This document shows, piece by piece, positions 4,953 to 13,220 of a DNA stretch of 64,000 nt. Made by a program: the position numbers and the translations under genes. Under the pieces are notes generated by a model. The model saw nothing but the letters and a program-made list of their open reading frames with translations. It ran no database searches and had not been told where the DNA came from. Numbering within the stretch: the first letter of the stretch is position 1; every line of letters starts with the position of its first letter. Origin of the DNA: Dermabacter indicis (GTDB lineage Bacteria > Actinomycetota > Actinomycetes > Actinomycetales > Dermabacteraceae); contig CYUG01000011.1 in NCBI GenBank assembly GCA_001403775.1, positions 1 through 64,000 on the forward strand, written 5' to 3'.

Positions 4953-6665
4953 ATGCTGCGATCGCTGTCGATTCGCCGCATCGGGGTCATCGACGATGCC
5001 TCGATCGATTTCGGGCCCGGCTTCACGGCACTCACGGGTGAGACCGGTGCGGGTAAGACTATGGTCATTACGGGGCTCGGCCTGCTCATGGGGCGCCGCC
5101 TGGATTCGCGGCGCGCGGGGGTCTCGAGCACGGTTTCGGGCCGCGTGGAGCTCGAGAAGGGTGCGCCCGTGCGTGAACGTCTCGATGAGCTGGGTGCGGA
5201 AGTGGAAGACGACGAAGTGCTCGTCGTTCGCCGCGTGACGAAAGAGGGGCGCTCGCGTGCGCACATCGGCGGTGCGCCGGTTCCCGTGGGTACGCTCGGC
5301 GAAGTCGTGGGCGGGGAAATCACGATCCACGGGCAAAGCGATCAGCTTCGCTTGCGTGAGCCCGCCGCGCAGCTCGAGGCGCTCGATTTGGTGCTCGGCG
5401 AAGAAGGCCGACGCTTGCTCGCCCGGCATCGCTCCCTCTTTGGGGAATTCGTTTCTCTTGACAGGGAAGTGAAGGAGCTTTCGGCGGCGCTTCGTGATCG
5501 CGAGCGGCGTGAGGCTGAGCTGAATGACGTTCTTCAAGCGATCGAGGCTGCTGGCACGTTCGAAGGTGAAGATGATGCCTTGCGCGAAGAGATCGAACGT
5601 CTGAGCGATGCGGCTGACTCGATCGCTGCTCTCGAGGGCGCGCTCATGCACCTGGCCGGGGATGAATCCTCGAGCGTGCTCACCCACGCGGATAGTGCGG
5701 CGGCGTCGCTGGGCTCAGCGCCAGGAACTTCGGACGTGTTGAACCGCATTCTCGCGCTGCGTGACGATGCGAGCGATATTGCGCGCGAAATTTCGCTTGT
5801 GCGCGACGGGTGGGAAGCCTCTCCCGGGAGACTCGAAGAGGCGCAAGAGCGCCTGCACGAACTGAGCGTTCTCGTGCGCGATCTCGGCCCCCGGCTCGGT
5901 GGCGCGGAGAACGTGAGCGCGCTTTTGGAGCATTCTCGCGAGGCCCTCGAGTCTCTTCACGAGCTCGAGGATGGCGTGAAGCGACTCGAGGAGTGCGAGG
6001 AGCGCCGCGGCGAGCTCGACGGCGAGCTTTCCGAGGTGGCGTTGGAACTGAGCGCGGAAAGGCGCGCGGCTGCGGCGAGGCTTGCTTCGGAAATCGAGAG
6101 TGAGCTCGCGGGCCTTGAGATGCCCGGTGCGGCCCTTCGAATCGAGGTTGAGCCGGCAGCTCGCGGTGCGAGTGGCAGCGATCAGGTCACGTTCACGATG
6201 CAGCCCCATCCCGGAGCGGAGTTCATGCCGGTTGCGACCGGAGCCTCGGGTGGTGAGCTCTCGCGCGTGATGCTCGCGCTCGAAGTCGCGATTGCTTCTC
6301 TTGCGGATGCTACGCGCGGCGGCGCCCATCCTGTTTTTGTGTTCGATGAGATCGATGCCGGCATCGGCGGGCGAGCTGCACGTGCCGTGGGGGAGCGGCT
6401 TGCGCGGCTCGCCGAAAGCGCCCAGGTCATTGTCGTCACGCACCTTCCGCAGGTGGCTTCGTGGGCGGGGTGTCACGTGCGAATCGTGAAAGAAACTCGA
6501 AGCGACGATGGCGAGGAGCGCACCATCTCGCGTCTTGAGCCGCTCGAGGGGGAGGCGCGCGTGCGCGAACTGGCGCGGATGCTTGCGGGAGATGCGGAAA
6601 GCGATACCGCGCTCGAGCACGCCGCTGAACTCCTCGCGACCTCGACGGGGGCTCACGGCGCGTGA
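4953..6665 (+). CDS. recN: DNA repair protein RecN
   Basis: A 570-residue SMC-like ATPase for recombinational double-strand break repair. The Walker A motif GETGAGKT is near residue 30. A long charged coiled coil occupies about 160-390. The ABC signature (ASGGELSRVMLAL) is near 428, and Walker B VFDEIDAGIGG is near 463, followed by VTHLPQVAS. Length matches the family. The ATG follows the nadK stop without a gap. Confidence 0.97.
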   Translation: MLRSLSIRRIGVIDDASIDFGPGFTALTGETGAGKTMVITGLGLLMGRRLDSRRAGVSSTVSGRVELEKGAPVRERLDELGAEVEDDEVLVVRRVTKEGRSRAHIGGAPVPVGTLGEVVGGEITIHGQSDQLRLREPAAQLEALDLVLGEEGRRLLARHRSLFGEFVSLDREVKELSAALRDRERREAELNDVLQAIEAAGTFEGEDDALREEIERLSDAADSIAALEGALMHLAGDESSSVLTHADSAAASLGSAPGTSDVLNRILALRDDASDIAREISLVRDGWEASPGRLEEAQERLHELSVLVRDLGPRLGGAENVSALLEHSREALESLHELEDGVKRLEECEERRGELDGELSEVALELSAERRAAAARLASEIESELAGLEMPGAALRIEVEPAARGASGSDQVTFTMQPHPGAEFMPVATGASGGELSRVMLALEVAIASLADATRGGAHPVFVFDEIDAGIGGRAARAVGERLARLAESAQVIVVTHLPQVASWAGCHVRIVKETRSDDGEERTISRLEPLEGEARVRELARMLAGDAESDTALEHAAELLATSTGAHGA

Positions 6666-7843
6666 ATAGTGAATTTCAATTCCCGATTGCTGGTCGGGCG
6701 AAGGCCGGCTCGCGCACGAAAGACCTCACGAAGCGCGTTGAGCCTGGTGACATTGTCGTGATTGATCACGAGGACATCGATCGCGTTGCCGCCGAGGCGC
6801 TCGTCGATAAGCACCCGGGTGCTGTACTCAACGCCTCCCCATCGATTTCGGGGCGCTACCCGAACGCCGGGCCGCAGATTCTCGTCGAGGCCGGTATTCC
6901 CGTGCTCGATGTGCTGGACCAGGATTTGTTTAACGTCGTGCGCGAAGGCCGTTTCGTGGAGATCGACGAGAGCGGTGTCGCGCTCAGCACCGGCGAGCGT
7001 CTTGAAGCGGAACTGTACACACTCGATGTCCTCCACGAGAAGCTCGAGAGGGCCCGTGAGGGACTCAGCGAGCAACTCGAGGCGTTCGCCTCCAACACCA
7101 TGGAATACATGCTGCGTGAACGCGAGCTCCTCATCAACGGCGTGGGCACGCCCGAAGTGCGAACCCGTTTCCAAGGGCGTCCTGTGCTGATCGTTGTTCG
7201 CGGCTACCACTACCGCGAGGACCTCGCGACCCTCATGCCTTTCATTCGCGAAAATAGGCCCGTCATCATCGGCGTGGACGGCGGCGCCGATGCCGTTCTC
7301 GATGCCGGGTACGGGCTCGACATGATTATCGGCGATATGGATTCGGTTTCGGATCGTGCCCTGAAAAGCGGTGCGGAGATCGTGGTGCACGCGTATCGCG
7401 ATGGCCGCGCCCCCGGCATGGAACGCGTCCGCAAGCTCGGCCTCGGGGAGGGCGCTGTGACGTTTCCAGCGTCGGGAACGAGCGAGGACATCGCGATGCT
7501 TCTCGCCGACGACCGCGGGGCCGATGTCATCGTCGCCGTTGGCACTCACGGGACGCTCGAGGAGTTTCTCGACAAGGGGCGTGCGGGCATGAGCTCAACG
7601 TTCCTGACGCGCCTTCGCGTGGGCTCGAAGCTTGTGGATGCGAAGGGAGTCTCGCGGCTGTATCGCCAGCGCATTTCCACTTTTCAGCTCGTCTTCCTCG
7701 TCATTGCGGGCTTGCTCGCGCTCGCCGTTGCTCTCTCGGTGACTGACGGCGGTCAGGCGCTCATTCAGATTCTTGGCGCGAGGCTCGATGATGCCTTGCG
7801 TTTCTTCACCGCTCTGTTTACCCAGGGAGGATCGATCCCATGA
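6662..7843 (+). CDS. steA: SteA-like cytokinetic ring protein
   Basis: 393 residues, related to Corynebacterium SteA (mycobacterial Rv1697). It has a nucleotide-binding thiamin-pyrophosphokinase-like core (GVDGGADAVLDAG and IIGDMDSVSD, residues about 200-230) and one C-terminal membrane helix near residue 350. SteA and SteB form a complex at the division site that affects cell separation, in part via peptidoglycan hydrolases. The GTG start overlaps the recN stop and the stop overlaps the next start (ATGA), so expression is coupled. Identification rests on motif pattern and gene order. Confidence 0.85.
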   Translation: MNSEFQFPIAGRAKAGSRTKDLTKRVEPGDIVVIDHEDIDRVAAEALVDKHPGAVLNASPSISGRYPNAGPQILVEAGIPVLDVLDQDLFNVVREGRFVEIDESGVALSTGERLEAELYTLDVLHEKLERAREGLSEQLEAFASNTMEYMLRERELLINGVGTPEVRTRFQGRPVLIVVRGYHYREDLATLMPFIRENRPVIIGVDGGADAVLDAGYGLDMIIGDMDSVSDRALKSGAEIVVHAYRDGRAPGMERVRKLGLGEGAVTFPASGTSEDIAMLLADDRGADVIVAVGTHGTLEEFLDKGRAGMSSTFLTRLRVGSKLVDAKGVSRLYRQRISTFQLVFLVIAGLLALAVALSVTDGGQALIQILGARLDDALRFFTALFTQGGSIP

Positions 7844-8913
7844 TCGACTTTCGCTATCACCTCGTCTCACTCGTGGCGGTATTTCTCGCCCTCGCGATCG
7901 GCATCGTTCTCGGTGCGGGCCCTCTCAGGGACGGCGTGGGGCAAACCCTGACCGCGCAGGTTGAGCAGCTCAGGGTCGAGCGTGACGAGATGCGCGCGTC
8001 GAATGACGCGGTCAAGGCTGAAAACGCCGACCTCGAGGGGTTTGTGGAGGCTTCCGGCGCGGGCCTCGTGACCGACACGATGCGTGGTGAGAAGGTCGCG
8101 ACGATTTCCGATCATTCCTCGCTTGGCAAGGAAGTGGAGGCGACGCGCGTGCTTGTCGACTCAGCCGGCGGTGAGAGCGGCCCGCACATCGAGCTTGGAC
8201 AAGCGTTGTGGGATCCGGCTTCGGAGGGGGAGCGTCGTTCCGCTCTCGCGTCGATCGCGAAGACTAGGCCGGGAGTGAAGCCGAGTGGAACATCGACGTC
8301 GGAGATGGTTGCTTCGGTGATTGCGCGTCTCCTTTCTCCGTCGGAGGATCTCGATGATGACGCGAGGCTCGAGATCGCCAAGGTTTTGAGCGCCAGTGGT
8401 CTCATCACGCTCCAGGGAGATATTTCGGCCGTCGATTCTGTGCTCGTGTTTTCGGGCGAAGGGTCGCTTTTCGCGGTCTCGAGTGATTCCCCTGAATCGG
8501 CCTCGACGCGGGCGGATAACCTGCAGAAGGCTCGTCTGTCGCTCGTGACGACTCTCGATAAGCGCGGTGTGTCGATGGCCGTTGGGGGGTCTCCAACGGG
8601 GCGCGGCGGTTCGGAAGGCATCGTGTCGGCTGTACGCTCGGGCGAGCTTCGAGACCGCGTCGCAAGCATTGACATGCTCACCTATGCGTCCGGCCCGGCG
8701 ACGCTCACGCTCGCACTTGCCGGGGCCCAGGTTGATATGCCCGGGGCCTATGGTTCGGCTTCCGATGCCAAGACTCTCGTGCCCGATGCACCGGCGATCC
8801 GCGAGCTCGCCTCCTCGCGCGCCGAGGAAAGCGGTGAGGGCGATTCTGCTGCCCCCCGCGGTGGCACGGACGATGCGGAAAATGTGCCCGCGAGTGACGG
8901 CGGTGGGCAGTGA
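7840..8913 (+). CDS. steB: SteB/MctB-like membrane protein
   Basis: 357 residues with one N-terminal membrane helix (about 8-27), then a coiled coil rich in Glu/Arg and an extracellular domain. The N-terminus IDFRYHLVSLVAVFLALAIG is diagnostic of the family annotated as copper transporter MctB (Rv1698), whose coryneform member is SteB, partner of SteA. It has no transporter-like set of helices, so a structural role with SteA fits better than transport. Translationally coupled at both ends. Confidence 0.85.
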   Translation: MIDFRYHLVSLVAVFLALAIGIVLGAGPLRDGVGQTLTAQVEQLRVERDEMRASNDAVKAENADLEGFVEASGAGLVTDTMRGEKVATISDHSSLGKEVEATRVLVDSAGGESGPHIELGQALWDPASEGERRSALASIAKTRPGVKPSGTSTSEMVASVIARLLSPSEDLDDDARLEIAKVLSASGLITLQGDISAVDSVLVFSGEGSLFAVSSDSPESASTRADNLQKARLSLVTTLDKRGVSMAVGGSPTGRGGSEGIVSAVRSGELRDRVASIDMLTYASGPATLTLALAGAQVDMPGAYGSASDAKTLVPDAPAIRELASSRAEESGEGDSAAPRGGTDDAENVPASDGGGQ

Positions 8914-9797
8914 TCGACATCGTTCGTGCCATAGGGGTCGGTGCTGGAGCGGCGACGCTCGCGTCGCGCGCATGTGCCGGTCTCGTTGACAGGGCGCCGG
9001 TCTCGCTTCGCGCGCAACTCGAGCGCACCAACTTTCGAGGCGAGCGCGTCACGCTCTTTGAAGGGATCGAGGTGGCGAGTGCTCTTGCCGCCGGCTGCCT
9101 CGTTGGGCTTGGTACGCCTTCGGCTGCCTCGATGGCCCTCGTGGGTGCCGTCGGGCTCGGCGACGACGTGCTCGAGCCGATCCTTATGCGCGGTGACGAA
9201 AAGCCGCCGAAAGGACTCAAGGGGCACCTCGGAGCGCTTGCGCGAGGTCGCCTCACGACCGGAAACGTGAAAATCCTCGGCATCGCGGCGGCGGCCGGCG
9301 TTCTCGCACGCGAGTGCGGGCGGGCGCGAGAAAGGGCAGGGTCCGACACTTCTTGCGCCTCGGTGGCTCTCTCGGTCGTGGATCGTGGCCTCGATACCGT
9401 GCTCATTGCCGCGAGTGCCAACCTCGCGAATCTCTTTGACCTGCGCCCGTCCCGCGCCCTCAAGGCGACGACGCTCGGCGCGCTTCTTGCCCTCGCGGGC
9501 CCGGCTACTACCGCTTCTGCGCCTTCGCGGGCAGCTCTCGCCTCCGCGCACGTGGCCGCGGTGATTCTCGCTGCGCCCCGCGACTTTGGTGCACGCGGCA
9601 TGCTTGGCGATGCCGGCGCCAATGCGCTTGGCGCGAACGTGGGAGTGTTGGCGGCGTTTTCCTCCTCGCGTGCTTTTCGTACGGCGGTCGCATCCGCGGC
9701 CGTCGGCCTTACGCTCGTTAGTGAGCGCGTGAGCTTCACACGCGTGATTGCCTCCTCTGAAATTCTGACCGCAATCGACGAATGTGGGAGGGAATGA
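8910..9797 (+). CDS. Small MraY/WecA-like membrane protein
   Basis: 295 residues, hydrophobic and Ala-rich, with about eight predicted membrane segments. Three islands resemble the polyprenyl-phosphate phosphosugar transferase family (MraY/WecA/TagO). These are GLGDDVLEP (the Asp-Asp motif) near residue 85, NLANLFDLRP (compare NxxNxxDG) near 172, and MLGDAGANALGANVG (compare GDxGSxxLG) near 231. It is shorter than MraY and the usual cytoplasmic His motif is absent, so activity is uncertain. The GTG start overlaps steB and the end overlaps the murJ ATG. Its place between SteB and the lipid II flippase suggests work on a lipid-linked cell-wall precursor, which is inference. Confidence 0.65.
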   Translation: MIDIVRAIGVGAGAATLASRACAGLVDRAPVSLRAQLERTNFRGERVTLFEGIEVASALAAGCLVGLGTPSAASMALVGAVGLGDDVLEPILMRGDEKPPKGLKGHLGALARGRLTTGNVKILGIAAAAGVLARECGRARERAGSDTSCASVALSVVDRGLDTVLIAASANLANLFDLRPSRALKATTLGALLALAGPATTASAPSRAALASAHVAAVILAAPRDFGARGMLGDAGANALGANVGVLAAFSSSRAFRTAVASAAVGLTLVSERVSFTRVIASSEILTAIDECGRE

Positions 9798-11464
9798 TGC
9801 CGACCTCCCGTGCCTCGTCCCTAATCCGCGCGACGGGGCTGATCGCCGCTATCACGGTGCTTGCGCGTCTTGCGGGCTTCGTGCGCTACCTCGTCTTTGG
9901 GGCGAGTGTCGGCGCGGGCGACATAGGAACCGCGTATGCGAGCGCGAATCTCGTACCGAGCGTCCTTTTCGAGGTCGCCGCGGGCGGCGCACTCGCGAGC
10001 ATGGTCATCCCGCTTATTGCGGGACTCCTTGATGAGCCCACCCGTGATCTCGAGGTGGGCAGTCGGGTCGCCCCTCGTGAGAGTGCGTCCGGGATCGTCT
10101 CGGCATTACTCACGTGGAGTGTGCTCGTGACGTGCGTTCTTGCTGCTCTCGTATGGGTTTTGGCTCCCACGCTCGCACGGGTCATCCTTGGAAGCGGGGC
10201 GCTCGCGGCGGAAGCACCCGCTATCGACCTCGGCGCTCGACTCATGCGTGTTTTCGCGCTTCAACTGCCGTTCTACGCGATCACTATCGTGCTCGGCGCC
10301 TATCTTCAGGCTCGACGCACGTTCTTGTGGCCCGCCCTCGCGCCGCTCGTCTCGAGTGTCGTGGTGATGGTGACGTACGGTCTCTACTCACTTACGATTC
10401 CCGTGGGGGTCACGCCCGCGACGCTCTCCAACCTTTCTGAAGCCGCACTCGGGTGGGGCACAACTCTCGGCGTCGTCGCGATGGCCCTGTGCGTGCTGAT
10501 CCCCGCCGTGCGTTCGGGCTTCCTCTACACGCCGCGCCTCGCCCTGTCCAGGGGCGTGTGCTCGCGCGCTCTTGGCCTTGCTGGCTCGGGCCTTGCCACC
10601 GTCGGAGCGCAGCAACTTACGACCGCACTCATTCTCGCCCTCGCGGTTCGTGCAGGTGGAACGGGCACCCTCCCGCTTTTCCAGTACGGCCAGGCCGTGT
10701 ACCTCTTGCCCTATGCCGTGCTCCTCGTGCCGGTCATGACGAGCGTGTTTCCCGAGCTTTCAGAGATTCGCACGCTCGGTGATCGCACGAGGTTCTCCGC
10801 GCTCACGCTGCGCTCGATTCAGACCGTGGTGGCGTTTGCCGCCGTGGGCGGGGCGGCGCTGTGGGGCGCGGGTGTCCCCCTCGACAATTTCTTTGTTGCG
10901 GTAGATCGTTCGGGTATTCGAGGTGTGGGGGCTGTGACGGCTGCGCTTGCTGTGGGTCTCATCGCCTACGGGATCGTCATGCTCACGACCAAAGTGCTCT
11001 ATGCGGGAATGAGGCCCGCCGAGGCGCTCGCTATCGGTGCGACGGGCTGGGGTATCGCGGGCGTGCTTATTCTCGTGACGGTTTTGACGTCGCCGCCGCG
11101 AACGACGGCAACCGCAGGTGCGCTTTTCGGATTGTGCATCTCGGTGGGCATGTGGATCGCAGCGATTGGGGCGCTTAATCTCCTTCGTGATCGTGTGATG
11201 GTGCGCGAGCACGTGCGCCCTCTCGTGAAAACGGTGCTCGCTTCGACTCTCGCCTCCGTGCTCGGGTCCCTCGCAGGGCTTGGAGTCGCCAAGCTCGTCG
11301 ATGACGTCTTACGTGGAGCGTGGGGCTCGCTCATGCTCGGCATTGCCACCGGCGTGGTGGGAGCCACGGTGTGCCTCTGCGTGCTGATGATTGCGGATCG
11401 CGCGCTTGCCGCGCCCGTCCTCGGGCTTTTCGCGCGCCTCGCGAGACCCTCGAAGAAGGCGTAG
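9797..11464 (+). CDS. murJ: Lipid II flippase MurJ (MviN family)
   Basis: A 555-residue polytopic membrane protein of the MOP superfamily with about 14 hydrophobic segments. The N-terminus contains GFVRYLVFGASVG and AYASANLVPSVLFEVAAGGAL, typical of MurJ. MurJ flips lipid II for peptidoglycan synthesis. ATG codons stand at 9794 and 9797. The GGAGGGA site at 9787-9793 favours 9797, while 9794 overlaps the preceding stop. Unlike mycobacterial MviN there is no C-terminal pseudokinase region. Confidence 0.92.
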   Translation: MPTSRASSLIRATGLIAAITVLARLAGFVRYLVFGASVGAGDIGTAYASANLVPSVLFEVAAGGALASMVIPLIAGLLDEPTRDLEVGSRVAPRESASGIVSALLTWSVLVTCVLAALVWVLAPTLARVILGSGALAAEAPAIDLGARLMRVFALQLPFYAITIVLGAYLQARRTFLWPALAPLVSSVVVMVTYGLYSLTIPVGVTPATLSNLSEAALGWGTTLGVVAMALCVLIPAVRSGFLYTPRLALSRGVCSRALGLAGSGLATVGAQQLTTALILALAVRAGGTGTLPLFQYGQAVYLLPYAVLLVPVMTSVFPELSEIRTLGDRTRFSALTLRSIQTVVAFAAVGGAALWGAGVPLDNFFVAVDRSGIRGVGAVTAALAVGLIAYGIVMLTTKVLYAGMRPAEALAIGATGWGIAGVLILVTVLTSPPRTTATAGALFGLCISVGMWIAAIGALNLLRDRVMVREHVRPLVKTVLASTLASVLGSLAGLGVAKLVDDVLRGAWGSLMLGIATGVVGATVCLCVLMIADRALAAPVLGLFARLARPSKKA

Positions 11465-11468
11465 CGGG

Positions 11469-12599
11469 ATGCGGCGTGTGATCCTTGTGCGGCCGCGTGC
11501 CGAAGGAGGCTTGCTTGTGCACGTACGTGAAGAAGCGCGGCTCCTCGCGCGTTCGGGAGTGCGCGTCGTCGATGCGGGGGAAAGTGCGCTTGTCGCGGGC
11601 GCTGACTCGCGCGCAGGCACATCCGGCATCCACTACCGACCTCTCGCAATCGCCTCGGGTGCCTCCCCTTTCGCCGCGTATGGCGCGCGGCGGGCGCTTC
11701 GCGCGATCGTGGGGGAGGAATTGCGGCGTGCCGAGGGCGAGCCGCTCACGGTTCACGCGCACGGTGCCCGAGCGGGGGCCATCGCCGCTCTTGCGCTCAC
11801 GCCGATGCTTCGCTCGCGTGTGCGCCTCGTGACGACGCTCCATAATCGCATGCCCCGCACAGGGCTCGGCGCGCTCATCGGCCGGTCGTTGTTCGCTTTC
11901 GCGTCGCGAAGAAGTGCTCTCGTGCTCGCAGTATCCCCGGATCTCGCGGATGCCGCGCGCACGAGTGGCGCGCGTGCCGTCGAGCGGGCGATCATCCCGG
12001 CGCCGAGCGCGGAGCATGTGGGCGAGTGTACGCCGAGAAGCAGCGACGTTCTCGAAGTCGTGTGCATCGCCCGTCTCGCACCCCAGAAGGACCTCGCATG
12101 CCTGTGCGAAGCCGTGCGTATCGTCAATGAGCGACACCCCGGCCAGCTTCGCGTGCGAATCGCGGGGGAGGGCCCGGAGCGCCAAAGTCTCGAGTCTCGC
12201 ATCGTCGCGGGGAGGCTCCCCATCGAACTTCTCGGCCGAGTGGCGGCACCTCGCGTGCTTATGGGCGAAGCCGACCTTGTAGTGCAAACAAGCTCGTGGG
12301 AGGGGCAGCCCGTGGCGCTTCAAGAAGCGATCGGGGAGGGCGCCGCCATCATTGCCACGGACGCCGGCGGAACGCGATGGGTCACGGGCGAACAGATCTC
12401 GCTCATTGAGCCGGGGAACTCGCGGGAGCTCGCGAAGCGGCTTACCGAGCTCCTTCCCCTCACGCCCGGAGCTCGCGCGCGTCTCGAGCACATGCGGGAG
12501 GCTTCGCGCGCGAGAGCCGCGGAATTGCCCACCGAGAGCGATCTTTTGGCGCAGCTCGAGAACGTTCTTTTCGCAGATCCACGCTTCGAGGAGAAATAG
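11469..12599 (+). CDS. GT4 family glycosyltransferase
   Basis: A 376-residue cytosolic or membrane-associated glycosyltransferase of GT-B fold. Donor-binding features of family GT4 are in the C-terminal half: VCIARLAPQKDL near residue 198, IAGEGPERQSLESRI near 230, and VQTSSWEGQPVALQEA near 274, with the second Glu of the EX7E pattern. The N-terminal half includes VHAHGARAGA. It starts four bases after the murJ stop, so it is part of the envelope operon. The sugar and acceptor are not predictable. Confidence 0.88.
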   Translation: MRRVILVRPRAEGGLLVHVREEARLLARSGVRVVDAGESALVAGADSRAGTSGIHYRPLAIASGASPFAAYGARRALRAIVGEELRRAEGEPLTVHAHGARAGAIAALALTPMLRSRVRLVTTLHNRMPRTGLGALIGRSLFAFASRRSALVLAVSPDLADAARTSGARAVERAIIPAPSAEHVGECTPRSSDVLEVVCIARLAPQKDLACLCEAVRIVNERHPGQLRVRIAGEGPERQSLESRIVAGRLPIELLGRVAAPRVLMGEADLVVQTSSWEGQPVALQEAIGEGAAIIATDAGGTRWVTGEQISLIEPGNSRELAKRLTELLPLTPGARARLEHMREASRARAAELPTESDLLAQLENVLFADPRFEEK

Positions 12600-12602
12600 C
12601 GC

Positions 12603-13220
12603 ATGAACACGCACGAGAACTTTCTTGCTGATGAGTTCCAAAAGCGATCCGTAGCCGAGAACCGCACCGTGTACGAGGGGCTTGTGTGGAATGTCGAGCG
12701 TGACGTCGTCGACTTCGCCCCGGGAGTGAGGTTTTCACGCGAATACGTTGCCCACACGGGGGCCGTCGCCATTTTCGCTTTCACGACCGAAGGGGAAGTC
12801 ATCGTGATCCGGCAATACCGGCACCCGGCGGGGGCCCACATGTGGGAGCTTCCCGCGGGTCTGCTTGACCACGATGGTGAAGATCCGGCGGAAGCGGCCG
12901 TGCGCGAGCTCGAGGAAGAAACTGGATACACCGCGGGCAGCGTTCAGCACCTTCTCGATTACTACCCGAGCGCCGGCGGTTCAAACGAAAAGATCAGCGT
13001 GTATGTGGCACACGAGTGCACGAAGGCCTCGCACGTCGACTTCACACGCGTCGACGAGGAAGCCGAGATCCTCACGCGCACGGTCCCGCTTGAGGAGCTC
13101 GAAGGCGCCGCGCTGTCGGGGCGCGTGCACAACAGCGCACTGCTGATCGCGACCCTTGCGTATACGGCGCGCGCACGCAGGGGAGAAGCCCCCGACGCTC
13201 AGCTGCTCGGTGGGGTGTAG
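12603..13220 (+). CDS. NUDIX hydrolase, ADP-ribose pyrophosphatase-like
   Basis: 205 residues. A full Nudix box lies at about 87-109 (GLLDHDGEDPAEAAVRELEE followed by ETGY). The flanking VIRQYRHPAGAHMWELPAG is typical of ADP-sugar pyrophosphatases such as mycobacterial Rv1700. It probably hydrolyses ADP-ribose to AMP and ribose-5-phosphate. It is the last gene of the steA-murJ operon, and its 3' end overlaps the convergent RNase D gene by 22 bases. Confidence 0.93.
   Translation: MNTHENFLADEFQKRSVAENRTVYEGLVWNVERDVVDFAPGVRFSREYVAHTGAVAIFAFTTEGEVIVIRQYRHPAGAHMWELPAGLLDHDGEDPAEAAVRELEEETGYTAGSVQHLLDYYPSAGGSNEKISVYVAHECTKASHVDFTRVDEEAEILTRTVPLEELEGAALSGRVHNSALLIATLAYTARARRGEAPDAQLLGGV

Follow-up and report, generated by a model that had tools for sequence, protein, structure and literature searches.

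What is a short membrane protein resembling MraY doing directly behind the cell separation genes of Dermabacter indicis, and which enzymes does it work with? The genes in question lie in a stretch of 64,000 nucleotides (assembly GCA_001403775.1, contig CYUG01000011.1, positions 1 to 64,000; the window). Five of them follow one another on the + strand in the order SteA-SteB-MML-MurJ-GT4, where MML stands for "mini MraY-like" and GT4 for a glycosyltransferase of family 4. MML (8910..9797, +, GTG start, 295 aa) is a PNPT-fold membrane protein without the tenth transmembrane helix (TM10). Enzymes with the MraY/WecA fold are a class of antibiotic targets, and the synthesis of many bacterial cell-wall glycans begins with them. 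Our analysis of sequences and models places MML in a clade of its own within this fold and suggests that it is probably a catalytically active though non-canonical polyprenyl-phosphate sugar-1-phosphate transferase. It would carry out the first step towards a lipid-linked glycan that is tied to cell separation by SteAB.

MML forms a third clade of the MraY/WecA superfamily

The window MML had no match at E ≤ 1 among the Pfam and NCBIfam models; neither PF00953 (Glycos_transf_4) nor TIGR00445 (MraY) matched it. PF00953 matched 10 of the 25 members of our alignment, weakly (best E 3.1e-4), and TIGR00445 matched two of them, also weakly (best E 0.12); one MML (G051) reached 21.5 bits on PF00953, below the cut-off of 27. 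Searches of PDB sequences with the single MML sequence or with the 25-row alignment found no MraY. An AlphaFold2 model of MML, built from 25 sequences, had a mean predicted local distance difference test (pLDDT) score of 90.3. Compared with solved structures in VIA-align, this model gave MraY (Z 19.6) and DPAGT1 (Z 17.9) with 255–259 residues aligned, the next unrelated fold in the list being at Z 5.1. The same two proteins were the top Foldseek matches, with a probability of 1.00.

Comparison of profiles led to the same family. When 146 MML sequences were set against 32 MraY/WecA rows, hhalign gave a probability of 98.0 over 272 columns (E 1.3e-12, for one pairwise comparison), while the controls run by the same method gave 0.6 for SEDS and 0.1 for MurJ. 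A shallower, two-row profile comparison with MraY/WecA gave 58. In a tree of 42 MML, 9 MraY and 23 WecA rows (the genome's own MraY is probably counted twice among the 9), the three groups separated cleanly, with a support of 0.998 for MML, which does not cluster with WecA and is thus not a WecA/TagO member. A preliminary description, made from the letters of the window, had proposed a relative of the phosphosugar-lipid transferases; both the predicted fold and the profile comparison bear this out, and an unrelated fold did not emerge. By profile and by model, MML is a member of the PNPT (MraY/WecA/GPT) superfamily fold and a third clade beside MraY and WecA. It represents a widespread branch, so far without a name, of the enzymes by which sugars are attached to membrane lipids, and no curated family includes it. 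Among the matches listed in a search of open-licence literature, covered by titles and abstract openings, there was no paper on the MML family, and the published passages covered name no additional bacterial clade.

MML is not the canonical MraY or WecA of its genome. The motifs and the tree exclude this identity, and so does the finding that the genome encodes both enzymes at other places: a canonical MraY beside a MurF-like open reading frame (ORF, named by eye), and a WecA-like protein. A second MurJ, on contig C17, scores higher on PF03023 than the copy in the window (192.9 vs 120.8 bits). The MraY-like and MurJ-like genes of the window are therefore not the sole members of their classes.

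The catalytic motifs of MML are conserved and altered

The three motif islands recognised earlier, DD, NxxNxxD and GDxGxxxLG, are present as D85-D86, N171xxN174xxD177 and G233-D234-A-G-A-N-A-L-G241, and the short length of the protein and its missing His motif are both real. In an alignment of 110 sequences, including the window MML, the residues D85, D86, N171, N174, D177, G233, D234, G236 and G241 are invariant, and L240 is kept in 101; the islands are thus no product of chance. We then kept 109 phylum-wide sequences of 114 regions, dropping L175-L177 (cut at profile position 254) as well as L188 and L288 (no match). All nine key residues (D85, D86, K121, N171, N174, D177, R182, K185, D234) are intact in 107 of these; the other two are L265, with N171H, and the apparently decayed L189. 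The 146-row set took every third of the remaining 108 sequences from the 110-sequence alignment and omits the decayed L189, L110 and L051 and the cut L175-L177, so that its counts are cleaner than those of the 109 set. Some of the motifs were already part of the peptide patterns used to pick the named loci, and the profile that yielded the phylum-wide set was in turn derived from these loci.

D85-D86 (9162..9167, +) align on the DD pair of MraY and are present in 109/109 and 146/146 sequences. H106 (9225..9227, +; 107/109 and 145/146) lies in a stretch before the K121 helix that has no MraY counterpart in the alignment, and K121 itself (9270..9272, +; 109/109) aligns with the Lys preceding GQ in MraY/WecA. 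The motif N171xxN174xxD177xxP180xR182xxK185 (9420..9464, +) replaces NxxNxxDGxDGL. Within it, N171 is kept in 107 of the 109 sequences, N174, D177 and P180 in 108 each, and R182 and K185 in all 109, the last two being also fixed in 146/146. D225...M231-L-G-D234-x-G-A-N-x-L-G241 (9582..9632, +) aligns with GDxGSLxLG, with D234 in 108/109 and one gap. The tail, E272...S275...L286xxxD290xxG293R294 (9723..9791, +), aligns with loop E of MraY without its histidines; D290 and G293 are each found in 109/109 and R294 in 102/109, and when aligned to the genome's own MraY, D290 falls on the loop-E Glu and G293 on the loop-E Gly. The acidic residues are thus kept across homologues, and their loss, which would speak against the proposed relationship, did not occur. 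In MraY, the DD and GDxG aspartates act at the metal site.

MraY and MML share the fold over model residues 1–295, the aligned DD, Lys, NxxNxxD and GDxG, and a loop-E-like tail in which MML keeps an acidic residue and a Gly. Unlike MraY, which has ten helices, MML lacks TM10, the second Asp of DGxDG and the loop-E His pair, has the extra stretch with H106 and belongs to a separate clade. With WecA/TagO and DPAGT1 (GPT) it has in common the fold and the order of the motifs, but it lacks their His motif and a PF00953 match at the threshold given above.

MML is coupled to SteA-SteB in Actinomycetota

Our phylum sample consisted of 296 Actinomycetota genomes, partly incomplete. The MML profile matched at E ≤ 0.001 in 120 of them, and SteA was above its cut-off in 126. 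Strong MML matches (at least 69 bits) were found in 114 genomes, a threshold at which G114, G290, G302, G111, G095 and G120 were dropped, and both MML and SteA in 110. G320 carries SteA on two contigs, of which only the copy sharing its contig with MML entered the count; for G277 we used the longer SteA piece, which is not on the contig of MML. Where the two genes share a contig, MML is downstream of SteA, on the same strand and within 15 kb, in 98 of 99 pairs, and upstream in G347. Among 58 close relatives, 48 have MML.

Four genomes have MML only, three from group f21 (Streptomyces-like) and one that is incomplete (G232). SteA alone is found in 16, which include all eight f22 genomes in the sample. 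The f22 group is probably Mycobacteriales, and the gene order of Mycobacterium tuberculosis fits this assignment. Among the f21 genomes, eight lack SteA; three of these have a damaged MML and five have none. In the three damaged copies (L175-L177), MML lies between RecN and GT4 with no SteA or SteB, and RecN and NadK are still beside it. N171 and K185 are lost, DD is kept and the profile match stops at position 254; the tail is cut in L175 and L177 and has diverged in L176. These copies represent gene decay in progress. In G290 (L188-L189), SteA lies more than 20 kb from a glycosyltransferase of family 2 (GT2) and a damaged MML with broken motifs.

The SteA-SteB pairs of Corynebacterium and Mycobacterium are orthologous to those of the window by family models and likewise follow RecN, but the f22 genomes have SteA without MML. 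The text covered of the SteAB literature mentions no MML-like or glycosyltransferase neighbour.

Glycosyltransferases and a MurJ paralogue accompany MML

We fetched 114 phylum-wide regions (L175-L288), of which 112 contain MML and 101 also SteA or SteB. The assignments of GT2, GT4, MurJ and a further protein, APX, in these regions rest on profiles built from these loci. GT2 is present in 69 of the 101 regions (57 times alone, 9 with GT4, 3 with MurJ), GT4 with MurJ in 21, and MurJ without a glycosyltransferase in 4. GT2 ends at most 400 nt upstream of MML in 53 of the 101, and in four regions GT2 and MML are fused in one reading frame: L190 (G165, f62), L193 (G074, f40), L237 (G089, f40) and L266 (G066, f33). 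The only three regions with GT2 and MurJ together have both on the opposite strand, as is the GT2 of L214. Among the named loci with SteA/B (n = 79), MurJ is found in at least 77 and GT4 in at least 67; the flanks of these loci are at most 7 kb, so these counts are lower bounds. The partner set is wider than the window shows. The preliminary description had suggested that MML acts on a lipid-linked sugar together with its glycosyltransferase, and the GT2 neighbours and fusions support this partnership, the activity itself being predicted. Seven regions (L194, L279, L282, L283, L285, L286, L287; f50 and f58) have the order SteA-SteB-MML-PyrG, and their partners may sit elsewhere.

PDB and family searches place the cluster GT2 closest to AglJ, GpgS, dolichol-P-mannose synthase and ArnC. 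The AglJ, dolichol-P-mannose synthase and GpgS enzymes are its closest named relatives (TIGR04182, E 2.9e-29), but it stays well below the cut-offs of these families, with at best 102.4 against 325 bits, and it is fused or adjacent to MML. The GT4 of the window is a GT-B glycosyltransferase (11469..12599, +; Glyco_trans_1_4, E 1.8e-20; Glycos_transf_1). Its ATG start at 11469 is better than a TTG at 11391, which sits inside the preceding gene.

This preceding gene, murJ2 (9794..11464, +; PF03023, E 1.9e-35), encodes a MurJ paralogue. Its ORF can open at 9782, but a start at 9794 or 9797 is preferred (ATGA overlap, GGGAGG just upstream). It had been described as a lipid II flippase, a wording that is not supported: its score on TIGR01695 is 127.3 bits, below the equivalog cut-off of 235.55, the genome has the higher-scoring second MurJ, and murJ2 belongs to a clade of its own. 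In a tree of MurJ proteins, 102 of 106 cluster copies group apart from 31 high-scoring others (the genome's second copy and 30 loci from the best PF03023 matches), with a support of 0.997. The four cluster MurJ outside this clade (L081, L183, L199, L201) are all on the opposite strand. At the second Arg of LLRRIF (7waw reference), the cluster MurJ have E or D in 78/79 and 26/27 sequences, with one gap in each set. Thus murJ2 is alike to the lipid II flippase in its Pfam family, and unlike it in its sub-cut-off score, its clade and this acidic residue. Of the cavity arginines, which are essential in E. coli MurJ, the R18 and R24 positions are mostly kept. The other positions vary in the comparison MurJ too, and the cavity arginines are thus unusable as proof of a new flippase substrate.

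APX is a further candidate part of the system

The APX family (about 700–750 aa) is present in 39 of the 114 phylum-wide regions and in 11 of the 80 named loci (L033-L112). It had weak Pfam matches only (best E 0.023), and its comparison with PDB sequences gave only a short iPGM/sulfatase motif at E 0.06. The model of APX (mean pLDDT 71.7) predicts an exported domain of alkaline-phosphatase fold and about ten membrane helices. In VIA-align, the exported domain matched nucleotide pyrophosphatase/phosphodiesterase with Z 14.0 over 221 residues and LtaS with Z 11.0. Foldseek alone gave no match for APX at E ≤ 0.001, its top rows being unrelated membrane proteins. For the membrane part, a SEDS relationship was considered and is not claimed: FtsW (Z 9.7) and RodA (Z 9.2) fall short of the level at which VIA-align is trusted for bundles of helices, and an hhalign comparison with 30 SEDS sequences reached a probability of 3.0.

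In a genome search that scored at most three candidates per genome, APX was found at E ≤ 1e-10 in 103 of 296 genomes. MML is present in 94 of these and missing from 9, and 20 MML genomes have no APX. APX is missing in all eight f22 genomes. The genome of the window has an APX relative on contig C17 (G000:C17:263984-265789), with a convergent GT2 beside it (L321:10798-11652, -; G000:C17) that scores 229 bits on the cluster GT2 profile. Because this APX relative and a cluster-type GT2 occur in the same genome, the five genes of the window are probably part of a larger set. ORFs resembling seryl-tRNA synthetase and diacylglycerol kinase (named by eye) lie close to the C17 locus. In L184 (G327), GT2 and APX form a single ORF of 802 aa just upstream of MML.

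A SteA-SteB-GT2-MML run occurs in a clostridium

A record of Acetoanaerobium noterae (NZ_CP154629.1), found in a plasmid collection (PLSDB), contains ArgR-RecN-SteA-SteB-GT2-MML-DUF3866-Nudix in this order. Its SteA reaches 521.5 bits on NF040608; its SteB and MML have no NCBIfam match. SteB and MML were named from position and likeness, and MML also from a tblastn match and alignment; ArgR, RecN, DUF3866 and Nudix were named by likeness. It is already published that some Clostridia have SteAB downstream of Spo0A, and the covered part of that text does not mention the GT2-MML pair (PMC12977500). The A. noterae record (L289) is a circular molecule of 2.63 Mb filed as plasmid pTPELB2. Its genes include RecN-, Dxs- and XerD-like ones and others typical of chromosomes, and it is probably a mislabelled chromosome. 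Another locus, L071, is titled Tissierella sp. Marseille-P2918. Its MML shares 62% identity with the Varibaculum cambriense protein (L083), and its gene order is actinobacterial; the organism title may be wrong.

Gene run in the window

The five genes were found on the + strand, at the place given by the preliminary description. Since NadK (named by likeness) and RecN directly precede SteA, the run begins upstream of the interval 6662-12599, and reads NadK, RecN, SteA, SteB, MML, murJ2, GT4 and Nudix hydrolase. The overlaps are small, with 4 nt shared by RecN/SteA, SteA/SteB and SteB/MML. The recN gene (4953..6665, +) matches TIGR00634 (E 1.2e-119) with 400.9 bits, slightly below the cut-off of 407.85. 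SteA (6662..7843, +) scores 483.6 bits on NF040608, above the cut-off of 150, and has a TPK-like domain (TPK_catalytic, 30.2 bits for a cut-off of 30.7) and a C-terminal SteA-like_C domain. SteB (Pfam MctB; 7840..8913, +) matches PF11382 at E 1.4e-57 with 196.2 bits, above the cut-off of 25.6. The Nudix hydrolase (12603..13220, +; PF00293, E 2.7e-18) lies in the downstream flank, outside the module. The closest named locus is from Dermabacter hominis, whose MML is 72% identical.

Discussion

From the fold, the conserved motifs, the clade and the coupling to SteA-SteB and glycosyltransferases, we infer a reaction and the steps of a pathway. MML would transfer a sugar-1-phosphate, or a similar phospho-group, to undecaprenyl phosphate at the cytoplasmic face, from a nucleotide donor other than the substrates of MraY and WecA. 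It would use a metal centre formed by D85-D86 and D234, together with K121, and R182, K185, H106 and R294 may stand in for the lost DGxDG aspartate and loop-E histidines. The GT4 of the window, or the GT2 of most other regions, would then add a sugar or supply a lipid-phosphate sugar. That a GT2 can act on the product of a PNPT enzyme has a precedent in mycobacterial WecA with WbbL. MurJ2 could flip the product, a lipid-linked glycan that would arise beside the SteA-SteB complex. SteA could sense the nucleotide released and thereby link the activation of peptidoglycan hydrolases, and cell separation, to the supply of glycan; this coupling is the least certain step. According to the part of the work covered, GDP or UDP stabilises the SteA of C. 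glutamicum, for which carbohydrate binding is also predicted, with an inconclusive result for M. tuberculosis SteA (PMC12977500). These properties would suit a sensor of sugar-nucleotide turnover.

Several observations weigh against MML being such a transferase or being tied to SteAB. The best Foldseek E value for the fold match is just 0.0097, despite the probability of 1.00. The second Asp of DGxDG is missing, with Pro in 146/146 MML; the loop-E His pair or triplet is missing, with R (99) and N (19) in column 287 and W (45), A (36), R (26) and H (5) in column 288 of the 146 sequences; and TM10 is missing, the model ending in an 11-residue helix at that place. Given the loss of these histidines and this Asp, a UDP-sugar donor is not transferable from MraY/WecA. 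As to the coupling, the co-occurrence of MML and SteA has a Fisher p of 1e-57, a statistic that ignores shared ancestry, and the pairing is broken in 20 of 296 genomes. Seven of the 101 SteAB-MML regions have no GT2, GT4 or MurJ match. SteA works in Mycobacteriales without MML, so that MML is not required for SteA generally, and the stabilisation by GDP or UDP comes from a lineage (that of C. glutamicum) that, by our reading, has no MML. In the part of the text covered, mycobacterial SteB too is reported as dispensable for separation (PMC12338722).

The loss of the loop-E histidines, the second DGxDG Asp and TM10, and the coupling to a regulatory pair, would also fit a pseudo-enzyme or sensor, in which the PNPT fold would serve to bind a lipid-linked sugar or undecaprenyl phosphate and to signal this to SteA-SteB, with no catalysis. 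We consider this unlikely, because the acidic pair, GD, the Lys and the Arg/Lys residues are jointly kept in 107 of 109 distant sequences, beyond the usual need of binding, and because the fusion and adjacency to glycosyltransferases point to a pathway enzyme. The same adjacency bears on a different chemistry on the same lipids, such as the hydrolysis or exchange of a polyprenyl-diphosphate sugar or the transfer of a non-sugar phospho-group. Such a reaction would be compatible with kept metal-site acids, changed donor-recognition motifs and fixed Arg, Lys and His, but glycosyltransferase partners suit a first transfer step better, and we give it a rather low probability. Ordinary synteny would make MML a housekeeping paralogue in an ancient block (RecN-SteA-SteB-...-PyrG) with no functional tie to SteAB. 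The unrelated housekeeping genes PyrG, Nudix and RecN in the block and the inflation of co-occurrence by shared descent speak for it. We nevertheless find it improbable: MML has decayed in the three SteA-less genomes though RecN and NadK still adjoin it, MML remains with SteA even where the spacing and the order of the partners differ, and in one region (L179) MML lies upstream of SteA. We favour an active transferase.

The company that MML keeps with SteA-SteB, across many Actinomycetota and in at least one clostridium, hints that a second pathway for lipid-linked sugars works at the division site. We tentatively propose, as a possibility with the odds rather against it, that many Gram-positives have a second pathway for a lipid-linked glycan, modelled on the lipid II pathway with paralogous or analogous parts and tied both physically and functionally to SteA-SteB, so that its glycan licenses septal separation. 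MML would take the place of MraY, GT4 or GT2 that of MurG and MurJ2 that of MurJ, with APX as an outer-face enzyme; Mycobacteriales would have dropped the glycan branch and kept SteAB. The genome of the window holds one each of these parts, with SteA, SteB, MML, MurJ2 and GT4 in the window and the GT2 and the APX relative elsewhere.

If bacteria have a further clade of the MraY/WecA fold whose catalytic motifs are altered, this would amount to a new enzyme family, for whose biochemistry the GT2-MML fusions offer a single-chain construct. SteAB has so far been studied mainly in mycobacteria and corynebacteria. The linkage to MML gives it a candidate metabolic input, the synthesis of a lipid-linked sugar beside the nucleotide-binding SteA, and what SteA senses becomes directly testable in MML-bearing organisms.

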